Below are positions 664 through 45,291 of a DNA stretch of 64,000 nucleotides, piece after piece. Made by a program: the position numbers and the translations under genes. The notes under the pieces are model-generated. The model had not been told where the DNA came from. It ran no database searches and was given only the letters and a program-made list of their open reading frames with translations. How positions within the stretch are numbered: the stretch's first letter is position 1; each line of letters begins with the position of its first letter. Origin of the DNA: a virus; the IMG/VR virus record IMGVR_UViG_3300047548_000496, positions 1 to 64,000 of that record, one strand, 5' to 3'.

Positions 664-1035
664 ATGCGTATCAATGAAATACTAACTGAAAGTTCGGATG
701 TAGTTACTCTATATCACGGAACATGCCCTGAATCTGCTAAAATACTGTTAGCAAATGGTTGGCAACCTAGGTCAGCAAGCCCAGGAGCGAACATGGGACA
801 ATCACAATACCTGTATCTAACAACAGAACCAGAAGATGCGTTATGGTTTGCACAAGAAAAGGGTTGTGATACCGTATTGAAAGTTAGTAATGTTCCAATG
901 TCTATACTCAAAGTAGACCCGGAAGATGGAATCGGTGATACTGTTTATGATGAACTACATTCAAGTAGCGGTGCACCTGGCAAAGTAGTTGCCATCAGAC
1001 CATTGGGTAAAGAACATTTTTCAATTGTCCGATAA
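664..1035 (+). CDS. Putative head-packaged ADP-ribosyltransferase-like protein
   Basis: 123 residues. The first nine residues, MRINEILTE, match the form of a T4 capsid-targeting peptide cut by the head protease after (I/L)-x-E, as in T4 Alt and IPI-IPIII. Directly after it, TLYHGT (residues 15-20) and YLYLTTEPEDALWFA (49-63) resemble the His and Tyr motifs of the ART superfamily; a Glu in YDEL (about 97) could serve as the third catalytic residue. Inference: a small mono-ADP-ribosyltransferase or Tpt1/KptA-like enzyme packaged in the head and injected with the DNA. Its late promoter ends four bases before the ATG. The ART call rests on motifs only; a non-enzymatic internal protein is possible. 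Confidence 0.55.
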   Translation: MRINEILTESSDVVTLYHGTCPESAKILLANGWQPRSASPGANMGQSQYLYLTTEPEDALWFAQEKGCDTVLKVSNVPMSILKVDPEDGIGDTVYDELHSSSGAPGKVVAIRPLGKEHFSIVR

Positions 1036-7152: not shown

Positions 7153-7390
7153 CAGTAACAACCAACAACTAACAATATACGAATCTCCTGACGGAGGCAA
7201 GACAGTCTACTCCCGCAAGTCAGGAGAGGCTGTTCGCCAATTAGAAAGTAGACTTACCGATCCTACATGGTTAAAAGAAAAAGAACTTACAGAACGCTGG
7301 GCCAGCTTAAAACAAGCTGTCTTTATGGATGACTCTACTATCAATGATTTGATTGAAAAAATCGAAGTGTTGATGAAATTAAAAAAATGA
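7142..7390 (+). CDS. Small conserved-looking protein
   Basis: 82 residues, charged and probably helical. An early segment (ESPDGGKTVYSRKSG) is typical of small T4-like phage proteins of unknown role. TTAGGAG lies about 13 bases upstream, with ATG also at 7145. It overlaps the following gene by ATGA. Confidence 0.65.
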   Translation: MMIDSNNQQLTIYESPDGGKTVYSRKSGEAVRQLESRLTDPTWLKEKELTERWASLKQAVFMDDSTINDLIEKIEVLMKLKK

Positions 7391-7629
7391 ATCATGAAGT
7401 GAACCCATTAATATGGTTTGCCGAGCGAGAATTACCATATCCACCAGTACATTTTGTAGTCGCATCCACACCTGCCACAATAGAATCCAAACAATGGGTT
7501 CTCGATCATTTGTCGGGTAGATTTTCTATAACAACAAACTCTGCTGATATTTTTAATTTAGAAAGCATAGGCAGTATCAGTTTTGAAGATCCAAAAGAGG
7601 CTATGATTTTTGAACTAAAGTGGTCCTAA
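7387..7629 (+). CDS. Member of the F-x-L-(R/K)-W small-protein family
   Basis: 80 residues. The end reads SFEDPKEAMIFELKWS, the same pattern (hydrophobic strand, x-E/K-x-A/D, F-x-L-K/R-W) that ends many genes of the array at 34.8-38.9 kb, and the centre has the matching helix KQWVLDHL. It is thus a lone member placed 27 kb from the array. The function is unknown. Confidence 0.65.
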   Translation: MNHEVNPLIWFAERELPYPPVHFVVASTPATIESKQWVLDHLSGRFSITTNSADIFNLESIGSISFEDPKEAMIFELKWS

Positions 7630-13635: not shown

Positions 13636-13894
13636 TAGCATATTATTAGCTACTTGTTTGCTATTAGCGGGCTGTGCATCTACAAATGATTACCAGACAT
13701 ATGTAGAAACTCAAAAAACGTTGAATAAAGACTATACTATGGCTGAACTCGCTAGAATTTCTGCATTGATTGAAATTGTAAAAGAATCTCAGGATATATC
13801 TGTTAAAATTGAAGCAATTAAGGCTTTACAAGAAATACAACGAGTAAAGAAACCGTTAGAAATAGACAGACCGAAGTCTTGGCTAGAAAGATAA
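13601..13894 (+). CDS. Second small lipoprotein of the lysis region
   Basis: 97 residues from 13601; an ATG at 13619 is also possible. The N-terminus carries a signal peptide with lipobox LLLAGC, then a charged helical domain. It overlaps the previous lipoprotein gene by 35 bases. It may be a further spanin subunit or a superinfection-exclusion lipoprotein; nothing in the sequence decides. Confidence 0.6.
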   Translation: MSRKRYMRTQNNSILLATCLLLAGCASTNDYQTYVETQKTLNKDYTMAELARISALIEIVKESQDISVKIEAIKALQEIQRVKKPLEIDRPKSWLER

Positions 13895-13897
13895 ATA
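13890..13897 (+). promoter_or_regulatory. Late promoter GATAAATA
   Basis: T4-late-like element overlapping the stop of the lipoprotein gene, 17 bases before the ATG at 13915. It would drive the cassette 13915-16504. Confidence 0.65.
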
Positions 13898-13914
13898 CTA
13901 TATAGGGATTTATT

Positions 13915-14445
13915 ATGGCACAAGAAATTATTAATGTAGGTGCGCTACCTAATGATGGTACCGGAGACCCATTGCGTGTTGCATTTGAGAAGATTAACAA
14001 TAACTTCAGTAATCTGTTCGCTACTGCAACAATTACTTACTCAGTATACACTGTAGGCAACACACCCGGTCAAGTTATTTTTGAAACCCCAATAACTGCA
14101 TTTACTCAAGCCAAATTTCAAATTCGTTCTAGTGACAGCGGGTCTCCTAATAGCCAAAATATAACAATTGCAGCGCAAATATCTAATGATAACGCAAATG
14201 TAAAATATACTGGATATGGAACCACATTTTTTGGTAATCCAGTAACACAGTATAGTATGGATGTGTCATCTGGAAACGTTAGACTTATGGCAGACCCATT
14301 AGTCAATGAAGCATTAGTACACTTTATTTCTGCACAAGTAACTTACAATAGTGATACCGCAGGTATAGATATTGGATTAGATGGCTATGTTGATTCAGTG
14401 CTAAACACTGAAAACAATCTAAATATCACTACTGAAAACGGATAA
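13915..14445 (+). CDS. Putative tail/virion protein
   Basis: 176 residues. The N-terminal pattern INVGALPNDGTGDPLRVAF then KINNNFSNLF is a motif seen at the start of many phage tail and fibre-associated proteins. The rest is Thr/Ser/Asn-rich and beta-like. It is the first gene of a late cassette: the three MRAREF proteins and an amidohydrolase follow with gaps or overlaps of a few bases. Confidence 0.7.
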   Translation: MAQEIINVGALPNDGTGDPLRVAFEKINNNFSNLFATATITYSVYTVGNTPGQVIFETPITAFTQAKFQIRSSDSGSPNSQNITIAAQISNDNANVKYTGYGTTFFGNPVTQYSMDVSSGNVRLMADPLVNEALVHFISAQVTYNSDTAGIDIGLDGYVDSVLNTENNLNITTENG

Positions 14446-14446
14446 A

Positions 14447-14842
14447 ATGAGAGCCAGAGAGTTTATTGCAGAATCTACAGGCAGTATTTTACCAGAAGTA
14501 CAACATACCCTACCGGCCGCCTGGGTGATCGATGCACTACAAAACAATGATTTTTACAAACAATACCGTTTTGGTGTAGCACTGGCAGGAGCTAAAGGAG
14601 CCGAACAACGTAAAAAAGATAATGTCCCCGAGTATTCTACGGAAACTGTTTGGGGAGAAAATGAAGTTATAATATCATATGGTGGTTCCGATTATTTAAA
14701 GAAATATTTAGATGACGCATTACGACAAATGGGATTGCCATCCAGTGCTGCAAAATTAGTAACAACTAAAAAGAGTGAAGAACCAACTAACACTGGCAAA
14801 CAAAGTACACTACTGCCGTTTAAAGGGTACAAAAGAAAATGA
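14447..14842 (+). CDS. Putative head-packaged internal protein, MRAREF family (copy 1)
   Basis: 131 residues. The first nine residues, MRAREFIAE, look like a T4 capsid-targeting peptide (T4 internal proteins begin with a similar Tyr/Glu-Phe-Ile-x-Glu stretch and are cut after Glu by gp21). The centre has YKQYRFGVALAGA, also found in copy 3, and the end is LPFKGYKRK. The start and end tags are shared with the genes at 14839 and 16103, although their DNA differs at third positions. Inference: a small protein packaged in the capsid and injected with the genome. The function after injection is unknown. Confidence 0.7.
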   Translation: MRAREFIAESTGSILPEVQHTLPAAWVIDALQNNDFYKQYRFGVALAGAKGAEQRKKDNVPEYSTETVWGENEVIISYGGSDYLKKYLDDALRQMGLPSSAAKLVTTKKSEEPTNTGKQSTLLPFKGYKRK

Positions 14843-15228
14843 GAGCAAGAGAATTCATAACAGAAGGGTCTAAGGGCCTGCGTGGAAACAATAGAGCAGA
14901 ACCTAACCATGAATTTGCGTCAGCACACCCTAGTATTGTAGCACCACATGGTCGTGGGGACATGTACATTGGCCGTTACTATGACTTTTATAAAGTAGCG
15001 CAATTAACTGGTATGGATCCTGATGAACTAGACCAGATGGACTTAATTTCATTCTTTGGTAACCTGCCTGTGTTTTCGGGATATACTGAACAGGACCGTG
15101 AAAAATTATTCCGTGTTATGAAAAAGCTAGGTATGAAACCCAAAGACTATATTCCTACTGGTAGCACAGAGCCCGATGATACACATGTCACAAGCCCATT
15201 AAATGGCTTCAAGGGTTACAAGAAATAA
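14839..15228 (+). CDS. Putative head-packaged internal protein, MRAREF family (copy 2)
   Basis: 129 residues. It starts MRAREFITE followed by Gly, a good head-protease site, and ends NGFKGYKK, as do the other copies. The middle is different: a helical domain (YYDFYKVAQLTGMDPDEL, then REKLFRVMKKLGMKPKDYI) that I do not recognise. It overlaps copy 1 by ATGA and the amidohydrolase by TAATG. Shared ends around a new centre suggest that cargo domains are exchanged between fixed tags. Confidence 0.7.
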   Translation: MRAREFITEGSKGLRGNNRAEPNHEFASAHPSIVAPHGRGDMYIGRYYDFYKVAQLTGMDPDELDQMDLISFFGNLPVFSGYTEQDREKLFRVMKKLGMKPKDYIPTGSTEPDDTHVTSPLNGFKGYKK

Positions 15229-16106
15229 TGTGTATCATAGTTGCGAAATACTTTGATGGAATTGGATGGGCGGGCGCAAAGAATCGTGACCGTAAGTATA
15301 TTCCAACACTAGATTTTTTAATTGAAGATGTAGGTGATGTTGAACGTTGTATGATGCATGACCAAATAACAGGTTATAAAGAAGGCATCAACAGTTATGG
15401 TTTAAGTATACTGAACACAAGTTTAGATGTACTAGAAGATGAGCCGGAAGTTGAATCGGGTAAGGCAAAGAATAGTCCTGACGGTCAAGCAATAGCAGAA
15501 GCATTGGCGATGAAAGATCCGTTGGATGCAGTAAAACATCTAATCAAAAAGAAACTTGTAGGGTGTACCATCGTCTTTAATAAAGAAGATATGTATCTTA
15601 TAGAAGCCGCTGACCAAGATGGCACAAGATCCTACGAATTTGTTGTAAAAAAGATAGCAAAGAAGAACATAGTAGCAAGAACTAATCATGGAATCTATCT
15701 TCCGTGGGCAAGTTTTCAACGTGTTGAGGGCGATGAGGAACAAACACTTGATAGAATATCTAGCGAAGCGAGGCTTTTACAAGCAGAAGAAGTCGTAAAG
15801 AATGCTAAATCTCCGCAAGACTTAGTAGATGGATTGTGTCAAGTCAATGTTAACAATCCTCAGCTAAATATAATGAGATTCAGTACAGAAGAAAACAAGT
15901 TTCGCACAACAAGTCAGCAGTTATGTGTACCCAAAGAACGTACATTATATTGTCGTCCAGTGAGTAGCAACTTACAATTTAATTTCTGGGAACTGAATAA
16001 GCCAAACCGTGACACATGGGTAGAAATTATAAGCAACAGAGAATTGTGGAAACATTCAAAGAAAAATCTACCGTTTGATGATGTCAATTTGAAAGATATA
16101 GAATGA
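15228..16106 (+). CDS. Ntn-type linear amide C-N hydrolase-like protein
   Basis: 292 residues. Cys2 directly after Met could become the N-terminal nucleophile, as in choloylglycine hydrolases and acyl-transferases of clan PB. GAKNRDRKY (about 16-24) supplies the expected NRD motif and ARTNHGIYLP (about 145-154) the TNH motif. Such enzymes cut non-peptide amide bonds or acylate amines. It is translated from a TAATG overlap and is enclosed by MRAREF genes, so it is made late with them. Possible roles are amide cleavage of a cell-wall or signalling compound, or modification of the cargo proteins; none is proven. Confidence 0.65.
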   Translation: MCIIVAKYFDGIGWAGAKNRDRKYIPTLDFLIEDVGDVERCMMHDQITGYKEGINSYGLSILNTSLDVLEDEPEVESGKAKNSPDGQAIAEALAMKDPLDAVKHLIKKKLVGCTIVFNKEDMYLIEAADQDGTRSYEFVVKKIAKKNIVARTNHGIYLPWASFQRVEGDEEQTLDRISSEARLLQAEEVVKNAKSPQDLVDGLCQVNVNNPQLNIMRFSTEENKFRTTSQQLCVPKERTLYCRPVSSNLQFNFWELNKPNRDTWVEIISNRELWKHSKKNLPFDDVNLKDIE

Positions 16107-16504
16107 GAGCAAGAGAGTTTATCACTGAAACAAAATACGGCTCTGCCGAAGATGTTTCAGCCGACGCCAAAAAACTACCAAAAAGCCAAGCCTCTGCTCT
16201 CAAAGGTGCTGTAAGTATGCCTGACATTTCACAAGTAAAACAAGGTGGTAGTCCATACGCACAATGGCGTTTTGGTATAGCAATGGCAGGGGCACCCGAT
16301 TTTCCTACTGAACCTGCAGGGGCATTTGCCGGCGACCCTCTACTGGCAACATATACAGATGTTGAGATGGATATTATCAACAAAGCAGCTAAGTTTATTG
16401 GCGCTGGCGAAGTTAAACAACTAACTAACAACAGAAGTCAAGAAGCCGATTGGGTCAACAAGAATAGTTTAGTAAAACCATTTAAAGGTTACAAAAGAAA
16501 ATAA
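16103..16504 (+). CDS. Putative head-packaged internal protein, MRAREF family (copy 3)
   Basis: 133 residues. It begins MRAREFITE and ends KPFKGYKRK; the central YAQWRFGIAMAGAP matches copy 1 (YKQYRFGVALAGA). It therefore shares both tags and the middle motif with copy 1, while copy 2 shares only the tags. It overlaps the amidohydrolase gene by ATGA and closes the cassette. Expected mature product after head-protease cutting: residues 10-133. Confidence 0.7.
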   Translation: MRAREFITETKYGSAEDVSADAKKLPKSQASALKGAVSMPDISQVKQGGSPYAQWRFGIAMAGAPDFPTEPAGAFAGDPLLATYTDVEMDIINKAAKFIGAGEVKQLTNNRSQEADWVNKNSLVKPFKGYKRK

Positions 16505-20486: not shown

Positions 20487-20494
20487 GATAAATA
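20487..20494 (+). promoter_or_regulatory. Late promoter GATAAATA
   Basis: Ends five bases before the ATG at 20500; the expected +1 coincides with that ATG (leaderless). Confidence 0.6.
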
Positions 20495-20499
20495 CTTAT

Positions 20500-22776
20500 A
20501 TGCCAAAAAATACAGATTCATTAAACCGTTCATTATTTGAACTATTAAACAGCAAGGGATATGACCCTACACTATTAAGCACTGCGGGTAAGGAAACACC
20601 AACACCTGAGGAAGCAGAAGTTTTCCAATTCAACTTTGTTAAAGACGGCGAAGATTACGGAAAAGTCACAATGTCTATTGATGGATTACATAAACTAGTT
20701 ATCTATTACGACGATGACATTGCTAATAGCGAAAAAGAAGAAAATGAATCTGGTGATTTATCTTGGTATCAGTTATTAAATCAATTGAAAAAATTCGCAC
20801 AGAAATATCAATTGAGTTTTGAATTACGGAATGTAAGCAACTTAAAGCACGATATGGCAAAAAGGGAATATATGAAAAAGAAAGAATCTATTGCAGAGGG
20901 ATATTATCCAATGGGCAAGAAAGCAAGTTACAGTGATGCTGTACCTAGCGTAAAGATTGTATTACAACACACTCGCCAAATAGAAGAAGGTGAGCAACGT
21001 TACCGTAATATTGCTAGAATCTTTTTAGAAAACGAACAAGGCGAAAGATTCTTAGCTCCCACAACTAAGCCAGGTATTGCCCGTGTATATGCTCGCCACA
21101 TTGCTGAAGGTGGTCAGCCTCATGACGAGCGTTGGAATCATATCAATAGTTTGTGCGAAGAATATCAAAAAATGGCAGGATTTGTTCGTGCAGTTCGCAA
21201 TGGACAATTTAATGAATCAGCACAACAATTGGTTAATGAAGGGGTTAATCATTATCAGTCATTGCGTGAGTCACTAAGCAAGTTAACAGGTCATCGTGGT
21301 TACAATGCATATTTTGAAAGTTGGACTCCTCCATTAATGGAAGATGACACTGATACAAGCAATATCAATGAATTGTTCGTACAAGAAACTGTTGATCCTC
21401 GCATTGAATCTGTTATGCCTATTCTTTCTAAACTTCAAAAGAAGATTAGCGAGATGAGTGAAGTTAATCAATTAGCAGAATGGGCAGATAATTTAACAGA
21501 AGGTGGCGATGGCGGTGAAGCTAGCGAAGAACCAGTTGAACAAATCGAAGAAGAAGAAAGTTTAACAAGTAAAAATCCAGGTGGTATACCTGAAGGTCAT
21601 TTGAGCAATCCAGGTGTGGAAGATAGTCCTGTAGTCAATTCAATTACTCGCCGCATTATAAATCAGCGCACAGACCTATTAGCAAAACATGGCCCTGAAA
21701 AAGTTGCACAAGCAATTGACAGTGTTGCTCATTTTGTAGGTGATGTTGATGAAATTGGTTCTAGTGATATCAGCGGTTGGGTCAAACAAGTTGAAGATGA
21801 ACTAAACAGTGTAACGGAAAGTATTGTTGACGATTATGAAGATATGAGCGATAGCGAATTAATGCGTCATGCTCGTATGCTAGGTTTAGAAGATAACATT
21901 GTCATGGATGGCGAAGGTGGTTTAGCTAACCGTATGGAAATGATTTATTTGCTACAACAAGAAGCAGGTGATAATCTAGAAGAAAGCGGATTACAAGCAT
22001 ACTTAGGTAACAAAAAGTATGGCAAAGAAGGTATGGACGCACTACGAAAAGCGGGTCGTGAACATGCAAGCAAAGAAAAAATGGCAAAGATTCGTGCTAA
22101 GTATGACAAACTAGATGAAGAAGATGTTGAAGAAGGTTTAGGTGATGTTGCTAAGAAAGTTGGCAGCGCATTGAAGAAGGGTGCTACAGCAGTTGGTAAG
22201 GCAATCGTAGGTCCTGATGATGACGAATTATTAAGAGACTTAAAAAAGAGAGCCGGCGTTCGTAACCCACAAACTGGCAAGCCAAGTATGGCGCACAGTG
22301 ATGTAGAAAAGCGTGAAGAAGGTGTGGCGGAAGGTGGCTATCAAGATGATAGTAAAGAGCGTGAAGAAAATTTAAGATACGCCCGCACTCGCAATCCTGT
22401 TGCCGATGTGATTCGCAAGAAATTAAATCCTAATCAGAAACCAGAAAAAGAGCAAGGTGTGGCGGAAGATTTAGATGCTAACCAAAAGCGTGTTGGTCAA
22501 TTAGGTCCTTACGAAAAAGTTAAGAATAACAATATCGGTAAACTAGTCGGTGCTAATGAGAATTTTATCAATACAGATGACCAAGCAGTTGTAACTGAAA
22601 CTAATCCTAAAGGTAAAGTTGATTTTGCAGCTAAATTCAAGAAAAATATTGATAAAGTAAACCAGAATAAAAAAAGTACTGACGAGAAAATAAAACAGCA
22701 CCATGATGACCAAAATAAACAAGTCAAAGAAGGACAAGAAGACCTCGATGCTATCCTAAGAATTATCAGAAAGTAA
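20500..22776 (+). CDS. Large acidic protein with several head-protease-like sites
   Basis: 758 residues, very rich in Glu, Asp, Lys and Gln. At intervals it shows (I/L/V)-x-E followed by Gly or Asp: SIAEG (about 133), HIAEG (about 203), NLTEG (about 333), GVAEG and GVAED (both after 600). T4-like head proteases cut after (I/L)-x-E, so this may be an internal core or scaffold polyprotein cut during maturation. The C-terminal third is lysine-rich and repeats KEREEN- and KPEKEQ-like stretches. It follows terminase with a leaderless-type late promoter. No family name can be given with certainty. Confidence 0.65.
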   Translation: MPKNTDSLNRSLFELLNSKGYDPTLLSTAGKETPTPEEAEVFQFNFVKDGEDYGKVTMSIDGLHKLVIYYDDDIANSEKEENESGDLSWYQLLNQLKKFAQKYQLSFELRNVSNLKHDMAKREYMKKKESIAEGYYPMGKKASYSDAVPSVKIVLQHTRQIEEGEQRYRNIARIFLENEQGERFLAPTTKPGIARVYARHIAEGGQPHDERWNHINSLCEEYQKMAGFVRAVRNGQFNESAQQLVNEGVNHYQSLRESLSKLTGHRGYNAYFESWTPPLMEDDTDTSNINELFVQETVDPRIESVMPILSKLQKKISEMSEVNQLAEWADNLTEGGDGGEASEEPVEQIEEEESLTSKNPGGIPEGHLSNPGVEDSPVVNSITRRIINQRTDLLAKHGPEKVAQAIDSVAHFVGDVDEIGSSDISGWVKQVEDELNSVTESIVDDYEDMSDSELMRHARMLGLEDNIVMDGEGGLANRMEMIYLLQQEAGDNLEESGLQAYLGNKKYGKEGMDALRKAGREHASKEKMAKIRAKYDKLDEEDVEEGLGDVAKKVGSALKKGATAVGKAIVGPDDDELLRDLKKRAGVRNPQTGKPSMAHSDVEKREEGVAEGGYQDDSKEREENLRYARTRNPVADVIRKKLNPNQKPEKEQGVAEDLDANQKRVGQLGPYEKVKNNNIGKLVGANENFINTDDQAVVTETNPKGKVDFAAKFKKNIDKVNQNKKSTDEKIKQHHDDQNKQVKEGQEDLDAILRIIRK

Positions 22777-34177: not shown

Positions 34178-34865
34178 CAAACCGTTGAAATATGGTTGTG
34201 ATTTTTGCGGCAGAGAATTTGCTAGAGAATCAACAATAGCAAAACATATTTGTGAATACAAACAAAGATGGATGAATAAAGACCTACATGGTAATCGTAT
34301 AGGTTTTCAGTCATGGGTTCAGTTTTACAAAAAGAATACTAACTCTAAGAAAACTAAGACCTACGAAGAATTCATCAAGTCAGCATATTACACTGCATTT
34401 GTAAAATTCGGAACGCACTGTGTAGATATAAACGCTATCAACATACCAAGATATGTTGATTGGTTGTTGAAAAATCAAATTAAGATTGACACATGGACAA
34501 GTGATACAACTTACACAAAGTATCTGATTGAATATCTTAAAACAGAAGATCCATTAGATGGTATTGCCAGAAGTGTAGAGGCTACGATTAAGTTGGGAGA
34601 GAATGCAGGCATATTACCCAAAGATGTTTTACGTTATGGCAATACAAATCGCATTTGCTATGAAATTACTAAGGGCAAGATTAGTCCATGGATGCTTTAT
34701 CAAAGCAACAGTGGTATTGAATTTTTAAGCAAAGTCAATGATATTCCAGAACAAGCTAAAATAATAATGGATTATATTGATCCAGAACAATGGGCATTAA
34801 AATTTCACAGAGAACCAGAAAATGTCAGAACAGCCAAAGAGATCCTCAACGCTGGCGGGTATTAA
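34167..34865 (+). CDS. Zinc-finger protein of unknown function
   Basis: 232 residues from a GTG at 34167 (AAAGAGA upstream); an ATG at 34137 is in frame too. Residues near the start form a finger: CDFCGREFARESTIAKHICE. The rest is helical with conserved-looking segments (YYTAFVKFGTHCVDINAINI, KGKISPWMLYQSNSG). I recall relatives in T4-like aquatic phages with no role given. It overlaps gp62-like on one side and the first gene of the small-protein array on the other, linking the two regions in one operon. Confidence 0.7.
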   Translation: METDKPLKYGCDFCGREFARESTIAKHICEYKQRWMNKDLHGNRIGFQSWVQFYKKNTNSKKTKTYEEFIKSAYYTAFVKFGTHCVDINAINIPRYVDWLLKNQIKIDTWTSDTTYTKYLIEYLKTEDPLDGIARSVEATIKLGENAGILPKDVLRYGNTNRICYEITKGKISPWMLYQSNSGIEFLSKVNDIPEQAKIIMDYIDPEQWALKFHREPENVRTAKEILNAGGY

Positions 34866-35076
34866 TGTTGAGCACGATTATCGTGTAAGGATACCTTTTA
34901 ATCTAATACATGACATAACGACAGGTCAAAATACTTGGAATGAATCCTGCGCTAAAGCAATAGAAATGTTTGGGTTGCCGGGTGACAAATATTCATGGAG
35001 ATTCACAAAAGAATATATTGAGTTTTGGTTCCGTGAAGAAAAAGATGCAATGATGTTTGAACTATGTTGCGGATAA
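34822..35076 (+). CDS. Small-protein array gene 1 (family F-x-L-x-W, variant end)
   Basis: 84 residues. KAIEMFGLP then YSWRFTKEYIEFWFREEKDAMMFELCCG gives the family layout: helix, FG, W-R-F, beta strand, E-x-D-A-x-x-F-x-L; the final R-W is replaced by C-C-G. It overlaps both neighbours. Function unknown. Confidence 0.7.
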   Translation: MSEQPKRSSTLAGINVEHDYRVRIPFNLIHDITTGQNTWNESCAKAIEMFGLPGDKYSWRFTKEYIEFWFREEKDAMMFELCCG

Positions 35077-35480
35077 AAGCTAGAATTCGTAAATGGAAAG
35101 CCGAGCGCAAACTCAAAAAGAGTGGGTATGAGAATTGGCGTCAATATAAACACAACCGTGATTCTGGAGTAGAACAGTATGCCCAATGCGTAGAAGATTT
35201 CTACCTTGATTACCCATATGTCTACGCTTGTAAAAACCCAACCCATTACGCATATCAATGTTTAGATGATTTTGGTCTCGGTGTTCAGCGTTTTGGGTTC
35301 GATGAAATGAACGATTGGTGTCACGAAAAGATAAGGTGGAACTTTCGTTGTGATATGCATAGGGTTTATGAGAACCAATGGGGAAGAATGGAGTTGAATG
35401 ATATCGGCGGATATGATATAATATACTTTGCATTCAAGCGTGAACAAGATTTTACACACTTCTTACTAAGATGGGCTTAA
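35064..35480 (+). CDS. Small-protein array gene 2 (family F-x-L-R-W, with basic N-terminal extension)
   Basis: 138 residues. A basic N-terminal extension (RIKARIRKWKAERKLKKSGY) precedes the family domain, which has MNDWCHEKI and ends IIYFAFKREQDFTHFLLRWA. The extension could bind nucleic acid. The start overlaps array gene 1 by 13 bases. Confidence 0.7.
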   Translation: MLRIKARIRKWKAERKLKKSGYENWRQYKHNRDSGVEQYAQCVEDFYLDYPYVYACKNPTHYAYQCLDDFGLGVQRFGFDEMNDWCHEKIRWNFRCDMHRVYENQWGRMELNDIGGYDIIYFAFKREQDFTHFLLRWA

Positions 35481-35719
35481 AGAAAATCTACATGATGTAT
35501 CACACACCAAGAACAATAGAAGTTCTTAATTGGTTTTATGATACGTTCGGTGAACCACAAGAATGGAGTGCAATAGTATTGGAGCCTGTTCAATTGAAAC
35601 ATGGTTATCAATGGGCTAATGGTAAACACCATGACGGTGACTGGGACGAATTTGATACGGTTCCTGTAATTTGGTGTACAGAAAAAGCGTTTATGATGTA
35701 TTCTTTGAGGTGGTTATAA
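35471..35719 (+). CDS. Small-protein array gene 3 (family F-x-L-R-W)
   Basis: 82 residues with VLNWFYDTFGEP as the family helix and the end VIWCTEKAFMMYSLRWL. It overlaps genes 2 and 4 (TAATG). Function unknown. Confidence 0.7.
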   Translation: MGLKKIYMMYHTPRTIEVLNWFYDTFGEPQEWSAIVLEPVQLKHGYQWANGKHHDGDWDEFDTVPVIWCTEKAFMMYSLRWL

Positions 35720-35970
35720 TGGAACAAGGTAGCTTTACATACAAGACTGAAAAATATTACGGTAGCAAGAAAAATGTCCACACCATTTCTTGGAAGGGGA
35801 AGGGCGAAGTTGATAGCGCAGAGATTCAGAAATGGTGCATTGACAATTTCGGGCAACCTGGCTACCAAGAAGAACACGGTGAAGCACGATGGCTAGACCA
35901 TACTGATTTTGGTGAAATCTTTTTGTGTAAAGATGAAGACTTGACCTTCTTCTTACTCAAGTGGACATGA
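35719..35970 (+). CDS. Small-protein array gene 4 (family F-x-L-K-W)
   Basis: 83 residues from the ATG at 35719, with GAGGTG upstream. IQKWCIDNFGQPG is the family helix, then ARW, and the end is IFLCKDEDLTFFLLKWT. It overlaps both neighbours. Confidence 0.7.
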   Translation: MEQGSFTYKTEKYYGSKKNVHTISWKGKGEVDSAEIQKWCIDNFGQPGYQEEHGEARWLDHTDFGEIFLCKDEDLTFFLLKWT

Positions 35971-36200
35971 GAAGAATTCATTTTGAAGGCCCTACATGGC
36001 ATGACACCAAACCCGGTTGGCACGAAATCGAGTTGAACCTAAACGGGCAACCAAAACGCTATCGTGAAATTATAGAATGGCTGTATAATAGTATAGATAA
36101 GCCCGAAAGGCATTGTAGGTGGTTTGAAACTAGTGTAGGAATTAAAATCAAGTTTAGGTATGAACGGGACTATATTTTGGCAATGTTGAGGTGGAAATGA
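35967..36200 (+). CDS. Small-protein array gene 5 (family L-R-W)
   Basis: 77 residues from the ATG at 35967 (ATGA overlap). The start FEGPTWHDTKPGWHEIEL is followed by IIEWLYNSIDKPERHCRWF and the end IKFRYERDYILAMLRWK. Confidence 0.7.
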   Translation: MRRIHFEGPTWHDTKPGWHEIELNLNGQPKRYREIIEWLYNSIDKPERHCRWFETSVGIKIKFRYERDYILAMLRWK

Positions 36201-36550
36201 GAGTAAGCATTTGGTATCGCACTGAATTACAGCAACCTAGTAAGTCAGGTTACTATCTAAGTTATCGTGGATGGGGCATCGGTGGCAAGGCTGATGGTGA
36301 TAGCGATTGGGGTTATGTCTATTACGATAAGAAAAAAAATCAATGGAGTGACTACAAAAGCGAGGATAGTCACTATGCTATTGTCTATTACTGGACTGAT
36401 GCTACACCTGATGATTGGACAGACCAAGACCCTCCTAGCGTCAGCCTACACATACTAAAAGCACAACATAATGTAGCCCTGGAAGATGCGTGGAAAAAAG
36501 TTGTAGAAGCAATTGACCAATACAACATGATTAAAGAGTTGGTGAAATGA
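36197..36550 (+). CDS. Array gene 6, not of the L-R-W family
   Basis: 117 residues from the ATG at 36197. It is Trp/Tyr-rich (SGYYLSYRGWGIGGKADG, YAIVYYWTDATPDDW), a pattern loosely like DUF551 proteins, and ends in a helix. It shares the overlaps of the array but not the family ending. Confidence 0.65.
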   Translation: MRVSIWYRTELQQPSKSGYYLSYRGWGIGGKADGDSDWGYVYYDKKKNQWSDYKSEDSHYAIVYYWTDATPDDWTDQDPPSVSLHILKAQHNVALEDAWKKVVEAIDQYNMIKELVK

Positions 36551-36849
36551 AACAAGGCGATATCATTAAACTTATTGAAGAAATTGCCGATGGGTTAGCA
36601 AAAAAGATTAAACATGATAAAGCAATGTTTGAGATAAAAACAAATACTAAGTATAAGTTCAGCCGTAACTGGTATCAAGCATATTTCGACCTTAAAGACT
36701 ATGATGCTGTAGATGAATGGTGTGAACAACAGTTTGGAAAGCATCCTAAGAATCCTGATGCTTGGAGTCGCTGGTGGCACAAGTTTGAGGACAGTATTCT
36801 GTTCCGTGATGAAAAGGACTATGTGTTGTTCACGTTGAGGTGGAGTTGA
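36547..36849 (+). CDS. Small-protein array gene 7 (family F-x-L-R-W)
   Basis: 100 residues. A helical start (DIIKLIEEIADGLAKKIKHD) precedes a textbook family domain: AVDEWCEQQFGKHP, WSRWWHKFEDSILF and RDEKDYVLFTLRWS. Confidence 0.72.
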   Translation: MKQGDIIKLIEEIADGLAKKIKHDKAMFEIKTNTKYKFSRNWYQAYFDLKDYDAVDEWCEQQFGKHPKNPDAWSRWWHKFEDSILFRDEKDYVLFTLRWS

Positions 36850-37127
36850 TGAAATTATTTTATAGTAGTGCTGGGGCAAGCAATCCTAGCTTTGTGTATA
36901 AATTCAAAGTTAAAAAGTGTACAACTGAAATGTATGAGTGGGCTAGCAATTATCCCGAAAAAGGCCCCTTCAGCCGTTGGTATGTAGAATGGAATACTAT
37001 GAAAATGGATAGCGGCAAAAATTACGATGTAATACAGATTGAACACAGCGAAGCAGCCAAAATATTCAAAATTGCATTCGCGGGTGAATATGAAGATATC
37101 ACTATGAAAGAATATAGGCTTGATTGA
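36849..37127 (+). CDS. Small-protein array gene 8 (divergent member)
   Basis: 92 residues from the ATG at 36849 (TGATG overlap). TEMYEWASNYPEKGPFSRW follows the family helix and W; the end (HSEAAKIFKIAFAGEYED) keeps the E-A-x-x-F pattern but lacks L-R-W and is extended. Confidence 0.6.
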   Translation: MKLFYSSAGASNPSFVYKFKVKKCTTEMYEWASNYPEKGPFSRWYVEWNTMKMDSGKNYDVIQIEHSEAAKIFKIAFAGEYEDITMKEYRLD

Positions 37128-37338
37128 AGTCAAACTGATAGATAAACTTCCTATTGAGTTTTTGGTCATTGTAAATGAACTCAAAGAAAAGGGATATGTT
37201 CAAGGCGTAGACTTTGACTTTGCCTATCATCCACCCAAATTTGATGACTTTTCAGGTGATGCAGTCTATAATAGATGTGTAATCTTTACTTTTTATAAAG
37301 AAGAATTAGCAACATGGTTCAGTCTAATATACCATTAA
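37120..37338 (+). CDS. Small-protein array gene 9 (divergent member, TTG start)
   Basis: 72 residues. The TTG at 37120 overlaps the previous stop, and no in-frame ATG exists nearby. The end CVIFTFYKEELATWFSLIYH follows the family pattern with I-Y in place of R-W. Start uncertain. Confidence 0.55.
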   Translation: MIEVKLIDKLPIEFLVIVNELKEKGYVQGVDFDFAYHPPKFDDFSGDAVYNRCVIFTFYKEELATWFSLIYH

Positions 37339-37589
37339 CAATAGATCAAGTAATCAAAGAGAAAGTCGATGAAATGCAAAAGGGTATCGACAATGATGTT
37401 ATGAGAGCCTGTTTAGTCGAAAGTGGCTGGACACAAGTAGAATTCTACTATACCAATAATAAACACGCAATTGATGTGCTAAATTGGATCGGTGACAATG
37501 TGAAAGAAAATCAGTGGTCACGGTTGAACAGTTACTTTGTATTCCGCAAGAAAAAAGATGCGGAGTGGTTCATGTTACGATGGCTATAA
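37314..37589 (+). CDS. Small-protein array gene 10 (family F-x-L-R-W)
   Basis: 91 residues. DVLNWIGDNVKENQWSRL is the family helix and the end is FVFRKKKDAEWFMLRWL. It overlaps gene 9 by 25 bases. Confidence 0.7.
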   Translation: MVQSNIPLTIDQVIKEKVDEMQKGIDNDVMRACLVESGWTQVEFYYTNNKHAIDVLNWIGDNVKENQWSRLNSYFVFRKKKDAEWFMLRWL

Positions 37590-37590
37590 A

Positions 37591-37812
37591 ATGGAATATA
37601 CTATAGTCGAAGATGGGTGTGACTGCTATCCTTGGCATGAAGTTTATGCTTTGTTGCCGCATAAAACTGTGACTGGTAAGAGAGTTTGGTTACAAAAAGT
37701 GTATAAGCGTAAAGTGTGGGTTGTATGGGGCACAGGATTTCATATGGAACCAGAAGTGCAATATGCTACTGCATTTGATTTATTAGTTTATGACAACAAG
37801 TATAATCCTTAA
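37591..37812 (+). CDS. Array gene 11; paralogue of the gene at 61904
   Basis: 73 residues from the ATG at 37591. YPWHEVYALLPHK, TGKRVWLQKVYKRK and a final YATAFDLL match the 61904 product (HPWERWFAWYPVK, HGKRTWLKIVYRR, YGNVFDLL). It is a second small family, separate from the L-R-W set. Confidence 0.65.
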   Translation: MEYTIVEDGCDCYPWHEVYALLPHKTVTGKRVWLQKVYKRKVWVVWGTGFHMEPEVQYATAFDLLVYDNKYNP

Positions 37813-38011
37813 ACATGGGTTAGGTGCCCGTGAAGAACAATGGTTAGCAAAGAATGTGGGGCCTAGAATGCATTATATTCACAATAGCATAGGTGGACAG
37901 GGCTGGATAGCTAAACGTGAATGGACTCCTGGAATGGTTAGTAGAGAATGGGTTCTGACATTTGAAGATGAACGCTATGCTACATTTTTTAGATTGATGT
38001 TTCCAGAATGA
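37790..38011 (+). CDS. Small-protein array gene 12 (variant end)
   Basis: 73 residues. EEQWLAKNVGPR is the family helix and WVLTFEDERYATFFRLMFPE the end, with M-F in place of R-W. It overlaps both neighbours. Confidence 0.65.
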   Translation: MTTSIILKHGLGAREEQWLAKNVGPRMHYIHNSIGGQGWIAKREWTPGMVSREWVLTFEDERYATFFRLMFPE

Positions 38012-38274
38012 ATATATCTAAAGACTTTCAGGATTATGATGACGATGGTCCAGAAATGGAATTTCGAAAAAACCGCTGGAACTATTGGTCTGCTCTTAAA
38101 CAAGCACGCCAAGAATATATGAAAACAAAAATAGAGTTTGATGCGTATGAGTTTGAAGATTGGCTCGAAGCAATATATGGTATAAAGATGAACATCGTCA
38201 ACGGTAATATCACAGATGGTTATAAAATTATGGATGAAGCCAAATACACATTTTTTCTATTGAAATTCCAATGA
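38008..38274 (+). CDS. Small-protein array gene 13 (variant end)
   Basis: 88 residues. An acidic start, then FEDWLEAIYGI and the end YKIMDEAKYTFFLLKFQ; K-F replaces R-W. ATGA overlaps on both sides. Confidence 0.65.
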   Translation: MNISKDFQDYDDDGPEMEFRKNRWNYWSALKQARQEYMKTKIEFDAYEFEDWLEAIYGIKMNIVNGNITDGYKIMDEAKYTFFLLKFQ

Positions 38275-38615
38275 ATAACAATCATCCATTTAAGATCACA
38301 CAGTACGATAGATTTATCACTGTGACATGGCCTAATATGAATGATGTCAGGGAAAAAGTTACTAAATTAAAATTAATAGAGGCAGCATTTCAACAATCCA
38401 AAGCAGTTGAAGTAGGCTTTGTGTTAGAACTCAACAATAAAGAATATGATATCATGTGGATCAATTCTTTTCTTAGTTTGACTGAAAATGATTATGTGAA
38501 TTATATACAAGATATGTATGTTATTAAGGGTGTTGCATATAGAGAGAAAACAGATGCAGAGAAGTTCTACAATTGGTTAGAAGGAAAGTATATATGGCAA
38601 TTACTCAAGGAATAA
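38271..38615 (+). CDS. Array gene 14 (probable distant member)
   Basis: 114 residues, longer than most. The segment VAYREKTDAEKFYNWLEGKY recalls the family's E-x-D-A-x-x-F, but more residues follow. The next gene starts inside its end. Confidence 0.55.
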   Translation: MNNNHPFKITQYDRFITVTWPNMNDVREKVTKLKLIEAAFQQSKAVEVGFVLELNNKEYDIMWINSFLSLTENDYVNYIQDMYVIKGVAYREKTDAEKFYNWLEGKYIWQLLKE

Positions 38616-38872
38616 ACGGAACATTCGTTTCATACAGCGAAATGGATGACCCAATCTATTTTCGTAAATTCAAAAAGACCGTTCCACTTGACGGATCATG
38701 GGAAACCCGTGTATTCTATGAGATAACTAAGTTTCCATTGGGTCGCAAAGAAACAGAACAATGGCTAGAAGACCATTATGGTAAGTTGAAATATAGCGAC
38801 AGTTGGTGGAAAACATTTAACGGTATATGTATGAATGAAAAGATATACATACACTACAAATTATTGGAGTAA
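38594..38872 (+). CDS. Small-protein array gene 15 (divergent member)
   Basis: 92 residues from the ATG at 38594 with AAGGAAAG upstream. ETEQWLEDHYGKLKYSDSWW is the family helix and Trp; the end IYIHYKLLE is a weak form of the family strand. It is the last gene of the array before the exonuclease. Confidence 0.62.
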   Translation: MAITQGINGTFVSYSEMDDPIYFRKFKKTVPLDGSWETRVFYEITKFPLGRKETEQWLEDHYGKLKYSDSWWKTFNGICMNEKIYIHYKLLE

Positions 38873-43904: not shown

Positions 43905-44159
43905 ATGCAAAAACAAACTCGCAGTCTTTTAGAGGAATTAGAGGCCATTGGTAATAATCGTGATACCGCTCACATTATTGAGAGCAGGGGTCACAACATT
44001 ATTACTAGCGCCATCAATTTAATTGAAATGATTAATAAATACTATTCTCCTGATCAGGCTGAGATTTTAGAAAGAAAATTATTGAGTGCCATTAAAAGCA
44101 AGGATCAATCTAGATTTTCTAAGTCTATAAAAAAGAATAGTAAAAATGAACCCATCTGA
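43905..44159 (+). CDS. Small helical protein of unknown function
   Basis: 84 residues. TRSLLEELEAIGNNRDTAHI, ESRGHNIITSAINLIEMI and the end KSIKKNSKN resemble conserved small proteins of T4-like aquatic phages. It overlaps the next gene by 14 bases and shares its late promoter, so the two may act together in the head or packaging. Confidence 0.68.
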   Translation: MQKQTRSLLEELEAIGNNRDTAHIIESRGHNIITSAINLIEMINKYYSPDQAEILERKLLSAIKSKDQSRFSKSIKKNSKNEPI

Positions 44160-45291
44160 TGAACTATCATTGCTAAAATCTAAGATTGAAGAATTAAGTC
44201 TTTTTGAAGGTAAAGGTCATTTAGACCATCCTGAGGATTTGATATTTTTAGATGGAACTCAGGGCGCTAATCATGCTATACAGGCATCAGTGGCCACAGT
44301 TAATAATCCACAAACAGTTACTATCAAATGGGATGGATATCCTGCATTAATTTTTGGTCGTGGAACTAATGGTAAGTTCACTATAATGGACAAACACATG
44401 TTCAATAAAAAAGATTTATCAGGAAGACAAGTCTTTAGTCCAGAACAGTTTGTTCAGTATGACCGAGCACGTGGAGTAGACCGCACTGGATTACATCAAA
44501 TAATTAACGAAATATGGCCTGGTCTAGAAAAGTCAGACCGTAGCAAAGGGTACTATTGGGGTGACCTACTATTCAGTCAGCCACTGCAAGACCAAAACGG
44601 TATGTATAAGTTTAGAGCCAATCCCAATGGTATCACATATACCGTAGATACAGATAGTGAAGTAGGGCAGTTATTTAAAGGAAAGCAAGCGGGAATAGTT
44701 GTTCATCAATTTATTCCTGCTACAGCAGTGACCACTGACGAGGCAACTCCTTTAGATGGCACTATAGGTAGTTTAAAAAATAATAGCAATGTTGCTATTG
44801 TTCCTGCCAAGATGCCTATAACTCCTAAACTAAAGTTGAATAACAGTTTAGTCAAAAAAGCACAAGCTGCTATTGCTAAGTACGGCAAAGATGTGGATCA
44901 GATGCTAAATACTGCTCCACAGGCAGCATCTGCCTTTCGTACTATGTTTACTACCTACATCAATAAAAAGATTGTTGCAGGAGATTTGAACAATTTAGTA
45001 GATGGTTTTATGGAATTCTTCAATAGCCGTCCAATGACCGAAACTATGCGTCAAAAGTTAACACAACATTTACAAGCTAACAAAGCAGGACTAATAGGGG
45101 CATTCACCATTTGGGCTGCACTATATCAATTAAAAATGTCTATTGTTGACCAATTAAACAGAGCAGCAGAGGCTAGCCCCGTTAAGGGTTATTTACAAGA
45201 CGGCACACAAACTCAAGAAGGTTTTGTCAGTCAAGGGTTAAAATTCGTTGATAGAATGGGTTTTTCACGCCAAAATCTTGCAGGCCGATAG
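44146..45291 (+). CDS. Conserved phage protein with a ligase-like K-x-D-G motif
   Basis: 381 residues. VTIKWDGYPALIFGR (about 64-78) has K-x-D-G, the nucleotidyl-lysine motif of DNA/RNA ligases; YYWGDLLFS (about 145) and AGIVVHQFIP (about 185) could be motifs III and IV. The C-terminal 150 residues are helical. I recall it as a conserved unnamed protein (possibly DUF6267) of aquatic T4-like phages. Nucleotidyltransferase activity is inference from short motifs. It is expressed from a late promoter with the small gene before it, which is odd for a repair enzyme. Confidence 0.6.
   Translation: MNPSDELSLLKSKIEELSLFEGKGHLDHPEDLIFLDGTQGANHAIQASVATVNNPQTVTIKWDGYPALIFGRGTNGKFTIMDKHMFNKKDLSGRQVFSPEQFVQYDRARGVDRTGLHQIINEIWPGLEKSDRSKGYYWGDLLFSQPLQDQNGMYKFRANPNGITYTVDTDSEVGQLFKGKQAGIVVHQFIPATAVTTDEATPLDGTIGSLKNNSNVAIVPAKMPITPKLKLNNSLVKKAQAAIAKYGKDVDQMLNTAPQAASAFRTMFTTYINKKIVAGDLNNLVDGFMEFFNSRPMTETMRQKLTQHLQANKAGLIGAFTIWAALYQLKMSIVDQLNRAAEASPVKGYLQDGTQTQEGFVSQGLKFVDRMGFSRQNLAGR

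Follow-up and report, generated by a model that had tools for sequence, protein, structure and literature searches.

The subject of this report is a small gene cassette at positions 13915 to 16504 of the window, the whole 64,000-nucleotide stretch analysed, which comprises bases 1-64000 of the linear 91,902-b virus record IMGVR_UViG_3300047548_000496 (hereafter the 91.9-kb record), from an uncultivated T4-like phage. Three of its genes, 14447..14842, 14839..15228 and 16103..16504 (all cassette features lie on the + strand), encode products that begin with MRAREFIAE, MRAREFITE and MRAREFITE and end in FKGYKRK, FKGYKK and FKGYKRK, respectively, as an earlier note on this DNA had reported; that a hydrolase is made from the same operon also proved right, since an untagged N-terminal nucleophile (Ntn)-type hydrolase similar to C45/penicillin V acylases is encoded between the second and third of them (15228..16106). 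The operon is opened by gene 13915..14445, whose 176-amino acid product has a tail-fibre/baseplate-connector-type N-terminus (MAQEIINVGALPNDGTGDPLR) and matches PHROG 8859 (unknown) and 677 (tail) with E 1e-9 to 5e-9; it is a short protein of that type and not a cargo protein. From 14447 onward the gene junctions overlap (ATGA, TAATG, ATGA), suggesting coupled translation. A terminase gene (18934) lies 2.4 kb downstream of the cassette, and a T4-like sheath/tube region is present in the 91.9-kb record. Comparison of all predicted-gene pairs in that record revealed that only the three tagged genes share eight or nine of the nine start residues, the next pair sharing six. Their tag and tail codons vary at third positions in a synonymous manner, which makes the protein-level selection on the shared ends claimed in the note clear.

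The operon is preceded by GATAAATACT (13890..13899, + strand, 25 b before gene 13915), a motif whose form we take to be that of the T4 late promoter. The cassette is therefore probably late, and as a sequence motif this would agree with expression alongside the head genes. The motif GATAAATAC occurs five times in the window against 0.98 expected, a number reached in 0 of 100 shuffles, and the decamer of 13890 also stands before 17267, 20500, 71757 and 74759, structural genes among them. Across 66 related loci GATAAATA is found 90 times on the coding strand and three times on the other, with 65 of the 90 coding-strand copies sitting 10-45 b ahead of an open reading frame (ORF).

It is proposed that the nine-residue start is, with high probability, a cleavable capsid-targeting sequence of virion cargo of the T4 internal-protein kind. 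The features that can be read directly are the tag itself, its constraint, its reuse on other proteins, the protease in long relatives, the late motif and the equivalence of tag and internal boundaries; from them we infer the packaging, cutting and ejection of the tagged proteins. These proteins would be made late and would bind the prohead core through the nine-residue start, the S77 (gp21-type) prohead protease of the phage would cut after the invariant Glu-9, and the cut proteins would remain in the head with the DNA and then be ejected into the host. The predicted targeting sequences are encoded at 14447..14473, 14839..14865 and 16103..16129, and the predicted mature proteins would start at S10 (13.5 kDa, isoelectric point (pI) 9.0), G10 (13.5 kDa, pI 7.1) and T10 (13.3 kDa, pI 9.3), respectively. 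In T4, cleavage by gp21 follows L/I-x-E, and for targeting and packaging ten residues of IPIII are enough (PMC9026906). IPII and IPIII of T4 both start with MKTYQEFIAEA, and against this reference the start has the form and the inferred role of a T4 capsid-targeting sequence, as the note had suggested: it is a short N-terminal peptide ending in [IL]-x-E, with V at P3 extending the T4 rule. The likeness to the gp21-cut IPI-IPIII and Alt proteins includes the M-[KR]-x(2,3)-E-F-I-x-E form, the length of 9-10 residues, the small size of the proteins, the T4-type head module with S77 in relatives, the late-promoter motif and the presence of ADP-ribosyltransferases (ARTs) in the tagged set.

The start is not confined to one protein family. 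M-R-A-x-E-F-[IVL]-x-E begins 53 distinct non-family proteins that fall into 26 unrelated clusters, counted over all loci of these related jumbo phages. G008 alone accounts for seven tagged starts, of which five lie outside the family, so that one peptide stands on unrelated proteins of one phage. Pfam searches of the tagged non-family proteins returned GNAT (2.9e-8), ART-PolyVal (4.7e-14), SLT (1.1e-18), LysM and GH19 (9.6e-18) domains. The looser pattern MRA.EF occurs in 28 of 28 environmental clade records, 16 of which had been reached via thymidylate synthase and not via the tag, and the reversed pattern in none; every record returned by the thymidylate synthase search also bears the tag. 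Present on dozens of proteins that are otherwise unrelated, this start is probably the label of an entire group that enters the bacterium together with the DNA. A literature search with the word MRAREF gave no relevant paper.

The three window genes belong to a small paralogous family. Relatives of 16103 are encoded at 66 loci, and the exact degenerate tag pattern has at least 120 matches in IMG/VR. The earlier note had envisaged fixed tags around exchangeable centres. For the three window genes this has to be abandoned: when the nine start and seven end residues were removed before BLAST linkage, 157 of 164 distinct MRAREF proteins still formed one linked family, and the centres of 14447, 14839 and 16103 are homologous, diverged copies within it, at about 25-36% identity among tandem paralogues. 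The idea holds instead for the wider system of related phages, with its 26 unrelated tagged clusters. A tag-free hidden Markov model collected 252 distinct family members of ~130 residues each, 245 of which have a tag-like start; most exceptions show M at P3, an insertion or a truncation. Among 92 representatives below 70% identity, M1 is invariant, R2, A3, E5, F6 and E9 are kept in 94-99%, position 7 is mostly I, V or L, and positions 4 and 8 are free; the other end is conserved as S-x-E and S-P-[VIL]-x-x-F-K-G-Y-[PK]-[RK], and the middle between the two is variable. In the L025 member an insertion rebuilds the site (MRAREFVSAVLSE), and the L187/L188 orthologues of 16103 bear MKTFLEYLAEAEAL in place of the usual tag, with a start, MKTFLEYLAEA, that is nearly of the T4 form. 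Profile searches gave no family hit or recognisable enzyme domain for the three ~130-residue window proteins, and the searches run gave no match of the mature proteins to a T4 family. No cultured relative of the family was found by tblastn, and the only structure match, in BFVD, was an uncultured phage protein (A0A6J5KNQ7). AlphaFold models the family mostly as a few helices plus coil, with a predicted local distance difference test score (pLDDT) of 78 and a low predicted template-modelling score (pTM) of 0.46. The family is small, partly disordered and similar in size to the T4 internal proteins, and by analogy with T4 IPI we speculate that the three proteins may inhibit a host defence.

Some tagged proteins of the related phages consist of several modules strung together by QGV(A/T)EG-type linkers (L367, L341, L092); GVAEG occurs 27 times and the reversed GEAVG not once, and a literature search on GVAEG gave one unrelated paper only. 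If one protease cuts both tag and linker, the first residue of a module is expected to be identical whether the module follows a tag or a linker, and the sequence following internal [VIL]xE sites was therefore compared with that following N-terminal tags. A tagged homologue exists for 91 internal sites; in 32 of these the alignment falls exactly on the cut, against 5 for the next commonest offset, and ten distinct modules occur both behind a tag and behind an internal [VIL]xE with the boundary exactly after the E. The clearest case is the isochorismatase-like module, which reads MRAQDFIVE/GLSQPVICVDVQPEYNGG when alone and ..EQDLAE/GLSHPVICVDVQPEYNGG when fused behind GNAT. This equivalence implies that one protease would cut both, and it is the strongest sequence evidence for Glu-9 as the predicted cut site. 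Long, linker-rich proteins with QGVAEG are common in uncultivated phages: loci L375-L492 of IMG/VR hold 106 QGVAEG-containing long proteins, 58 of them with at least two linkers and the maximum being seven.

The tagged proteins might instead be prohead-core (scaffold) components, targeted and cut by the same protease and then degraded or lost as the head matures and not delivered as effectors, an explanation to which we give perhaps one chance in four. The T4 proteins gp22, gp67 and gp68 behave as multi-cut core proteins (PMC9026906), and large proteins with many [VIL]xEG sites resemble them. One lies in the window, where a late-promoter-like motif and the gene for a 758-amino acid virion-structural-type protein occupy 20487..22776 (+ strand; gene 20500-22776; PHROG 13484, head and packaging, E 1.5e-9); its eight [VILM]xEG sites, compared with 1.4 in composition shuffles, mark it as a candidate for repeated cutting by that protease. 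Similar proteins at L146 and L181 have repeated GVAEG-type sites. The helix-plus-coil models of the three small proteins and their lack of a recognisable enzyme domain would suit core components as well. However, proteins with intact enzyme domains (ART, GNAT, transglycosylase) carry the tag, which is unexpected for a discarded core, and the mature part of the family alignment has no second conserved [IVL]xE site. An uncut N-terminal interaction helix, serving for example in tail or capsid-surface docking or in a replication compartment, is unlikely. AlphaFold places residues 3-10 in a helix, with low confidence, and a tail-fibre-type gene opens the operon, but Glu-9 is conserved as strictly as the rest of the tag, and a docking helix needs no boundary exactly after [VIL]xE such as the ten modules keep in N-terminal and internal positions.

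Returning to the capsid-targeting proposal, the tails suggest a further binding site that co-evolves. Within one genome, paralogues with unlike cores have matching tail variants (FKGL/FKGL, FRGYGQ/FRGYGQ, three of the FKGYE type, two with NRYGV). Between subfamilies, tail similarity within one genome is 0.611 compared with 0.439 +/- 0.021, a value reached in 0 of 2000 permutations; these were made within subfamilies and include any effect of phage relatedness, for which no correction was applied. The tails have switched variant several distinct times, and matching FRGYGQ tails vary at four of six codons. The paralogues would share a partner that varies between phages, and FKGYK(R)K is probably a second binding motif for that partner. 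Two other explanations of the tail were considered. The FKGY codons could double as a Shine-Dalgarno site (AARGG) serving the coupled gene behind them, an idea that was dropped on three grounds: F and Y are conserved, no coupled gene follows the last one, and AARGG is missing from the -NRYGV tails; gene conversion of the tails is disfavoured by the synonymous differences, except possibly at L189, where the two tails are almost identical in DNA. That the shared ends as a whole are mere leftovers of tandem copying or gene conversion in the recent past and serve as no address is very improbable and largely refuted: the genes are tandem paralogues and the L189 tails agree with it, but tags and tails vary synonymously within genomes around strongly diverged centres, the matching FRGYGQ tails differ in their codons, and the same start stands on 26 unrelated clusters.

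The proposed cutting calls for a head protease. Of 15 tag-bearing records, 12 score above the cut-off for PF03420 (S77, gp21), among them every one of the eight that measure at least 190 kb, and in related records the S77 gene is set in a gp20-gp21-gp22-gp23 module (portal, core, protease, scaffold and major capsid protein (MCP)); by eye, the MCP propeptides of these modules end in similar sites, e.g. LLAE/SSAG. S77 is also found in 7 of the 16 records reached through thymidylate synthase and in 6 of the 10 reached through the linker; it is absent from one 214-kb and one 262-kb record, and shorter records explain most other misses. Several points weigh against the proposal. No S77 protease was detectable in the 91.9-kb record itself, and none was found in a 139-kb contig with an identical cassette. 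The earlier note had held that a genome with no T4-type head protease would speak against its reading; taken literally, these two sequences are such genomes, whereas 12 of the 15 tag-bearing records encode S77. Given those records, and all eight of the longest among them, the absence here most likely reflects incomplete sequence, and both the 91.9-kb record and the 139-kb contig are probably incomplete. The co-occurrence of S77 and tag could also be a matter of traits shared within a clade. At the predicted cut, P1' may be A, Q, S, G, D or K, and P3 is commonly V, where the T4 motif has L/I. TerL and MCP point to PA5oct, Paride, Vibrio 2.275.O and other giants of this sort as cultured relatives; the most relevant one with virion mass spectrometry is PA5oct, whose record marks the proteins detected. 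Enrichment of the exact motif among these is not significant (2 of 4 detected vs 88 of 456, p = 0.17), and a looser motif tried afterwards gave a weak p = 0.035. Two small PA5oct proteins (MK797984, 82921-83142 and 157529-157843) read MKINDIITE/G and MKIKDILVE/S, and both were detected by mass spectrometry.

Taken more broadly, and with confidence only slightly better than even, the tag may belong to one genome-wide address code in a large uncultivated group of T4-like giant phages, in which MRA.EF[IVL].E starts and [VIL]xE linkers (often QGVAEG) would be served by one prohead protease, modular effectors would be loaded into the head and released mature, and the small family would add a C-terminal address co-evolving with a head partner. 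The effector modules in that same tentative scheme would be ADP-ribosyltransferases, acetyltransferases, peptidoglycan hydrolases, peptidase-like and ParB-like proteins, made as single proteins or as polyproteins. The system departs from T4 in several ways: dozens of families have the same MRA.EF tag, V is frequent at P3, QGVAEG-type linkers can string cargo together, the family proteins end in a conserved C-terminal tail, and for the mature proteins the searches run gave no T4 family. What is new is the breadth of tag use, the polyprotein linkers and the co-evolving tails. The polyvalent proteins of phages and conjugative elements are late and thought to be injected (Iyer et al. 2017, PMC5512222), and they share with the tagged set the domain kinds ART-PolyVal, GNAT, ParB-like and peptidoglycan hydrolase. 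The short common N-terminal address and the repeated protease-type linkers set the present system apart from them; two or more disparate domains per chain, as in polyvalent proteins, are found by inspection in tagged relatives (GNAT plus isochorismatase-like in L368, GNAT plus ART-like in L341) and not in the three window proteins, which are single small proteins. In SPN3US and phiKZ the ejection proteins are cut by a diverged gp21 homologue, several of their propeptides exceeding 100 residues (PMC5694885); these are likewise giant phages with head-protein propeptides cut after Glu at the N-terminus, and their gp53 and gp54 are diverged with identical N-termini, whereas the propeptides proposed here have nine residues and are shared genome-wide. 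If the address code is real, sequence alone would reveal the virion cargo of a widespread group of giant environmental phages: a tag at the start of a protein, or a position between [VIL]xE linkers, would predict an injected effector, many 'hypothetical' genes would become testable candidates for host takeover and counter-defence, and the chains would show polyprotein cargo released by a protease in nature. An old question, how widespread and how modular capsid targeting of the kind used by the T4 internal proteins is, would become testable beyond the cultured T4 relatives, and the co-varying tails could lead to a second head-binding partner.

The hydrolase encoded at 15228 keeps close company with the family, a gene of its type lying directly upstream of a 16103-type gene in about 45 of the 66 loci (counted from the listing). 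Cys2, the predicted nucleophile once Met is removed, and the NRDR motif are invariant in 32 homologues, as expected of an N-terminal nucleophile. Profile matches stay below curated cut-offs (NCBIfam C45_proenzyme, NF040521, E 1.2e-6, 28.1 bits vs 85; PF03417, 13.6 vs 23.2). The AlphaFold model (pLDDT 84, pTM 0.85) has 3gvz and the isopenicillin-N acyltransferase 2x1c as best Foldseek matches (E 5e-8, prob 1.00, TM 0.5-0.6), and by this model the protein is of the Ntn-hydrolase fold, C45/C59-like. It resembles isopenicillin-N acyltransferase, penicillin V acylase and bile salt hydrolase in fold, N-terminal Cys and NRD-type motif, and differs from them in its below-cut-off NCBIfam score, its about 14% identity to solved structures and its place on a phage branch. 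Only two cultured phages, Chryseobacterium phages MA9V-1 and MA9V-2, have a homologue, at 31%. Because it is untagged it is not predicted to be head cargo, and its action is probably inside the infected cell or on a late product.

Further tagged or tag-like genes were noted. A probable additional cargo gene lies at 664..1035 (+ strand), whose product has an MRINEILTE start followed by a YHGT motif and is ADP-ribosyltransferase/RNA 2'-phosphotransferase-like (PHROG 6170, E 9.6e-5; NCBIfam RNA 2'-phosphotransferase, a weak E 0.029). Outside the window, 71757-72386 of the record (L004:8258-8887) encodes an MKSLKQYIVES start behind a GATAAATACT motif, a possible further targeting-type start, and a similar protein of G005 starts with MKAFTQYLYET. 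Locus L035 has four consecutive tagged genes within 3.2 kb (LysM/SLT, YHAT ART-like, GNAT and isochorismatase-like). In one of its products (L035:413-1294, + strand) the MRASEFIAE tag runs straight into a Tat-like signal, DLSRRGFLRGLGAAG (22.1 bits for Pfam TAT_signal, below the 22.7 cut-off), after which come LysM and SLT domains; removal of the tag would expose the export signal, as if the injected protein then went to the periplasm. An IKWDG motif protein at 44146-45291 of the window (PHROG 455; ligase/nucleotidyltransferase-like by motif) has no tag, unlike an IKWDG protein encoded from L051:8810 on, which bears MRAWELLVE. Another gene set with a conserved end is found in the window at 34822-38872 and also at 7387-7629, where about ten small ORFs share the C-terminus F-x-L-[RK]-W, as in EQDFTHFLLRWA and EKDYVLFTLRWS.

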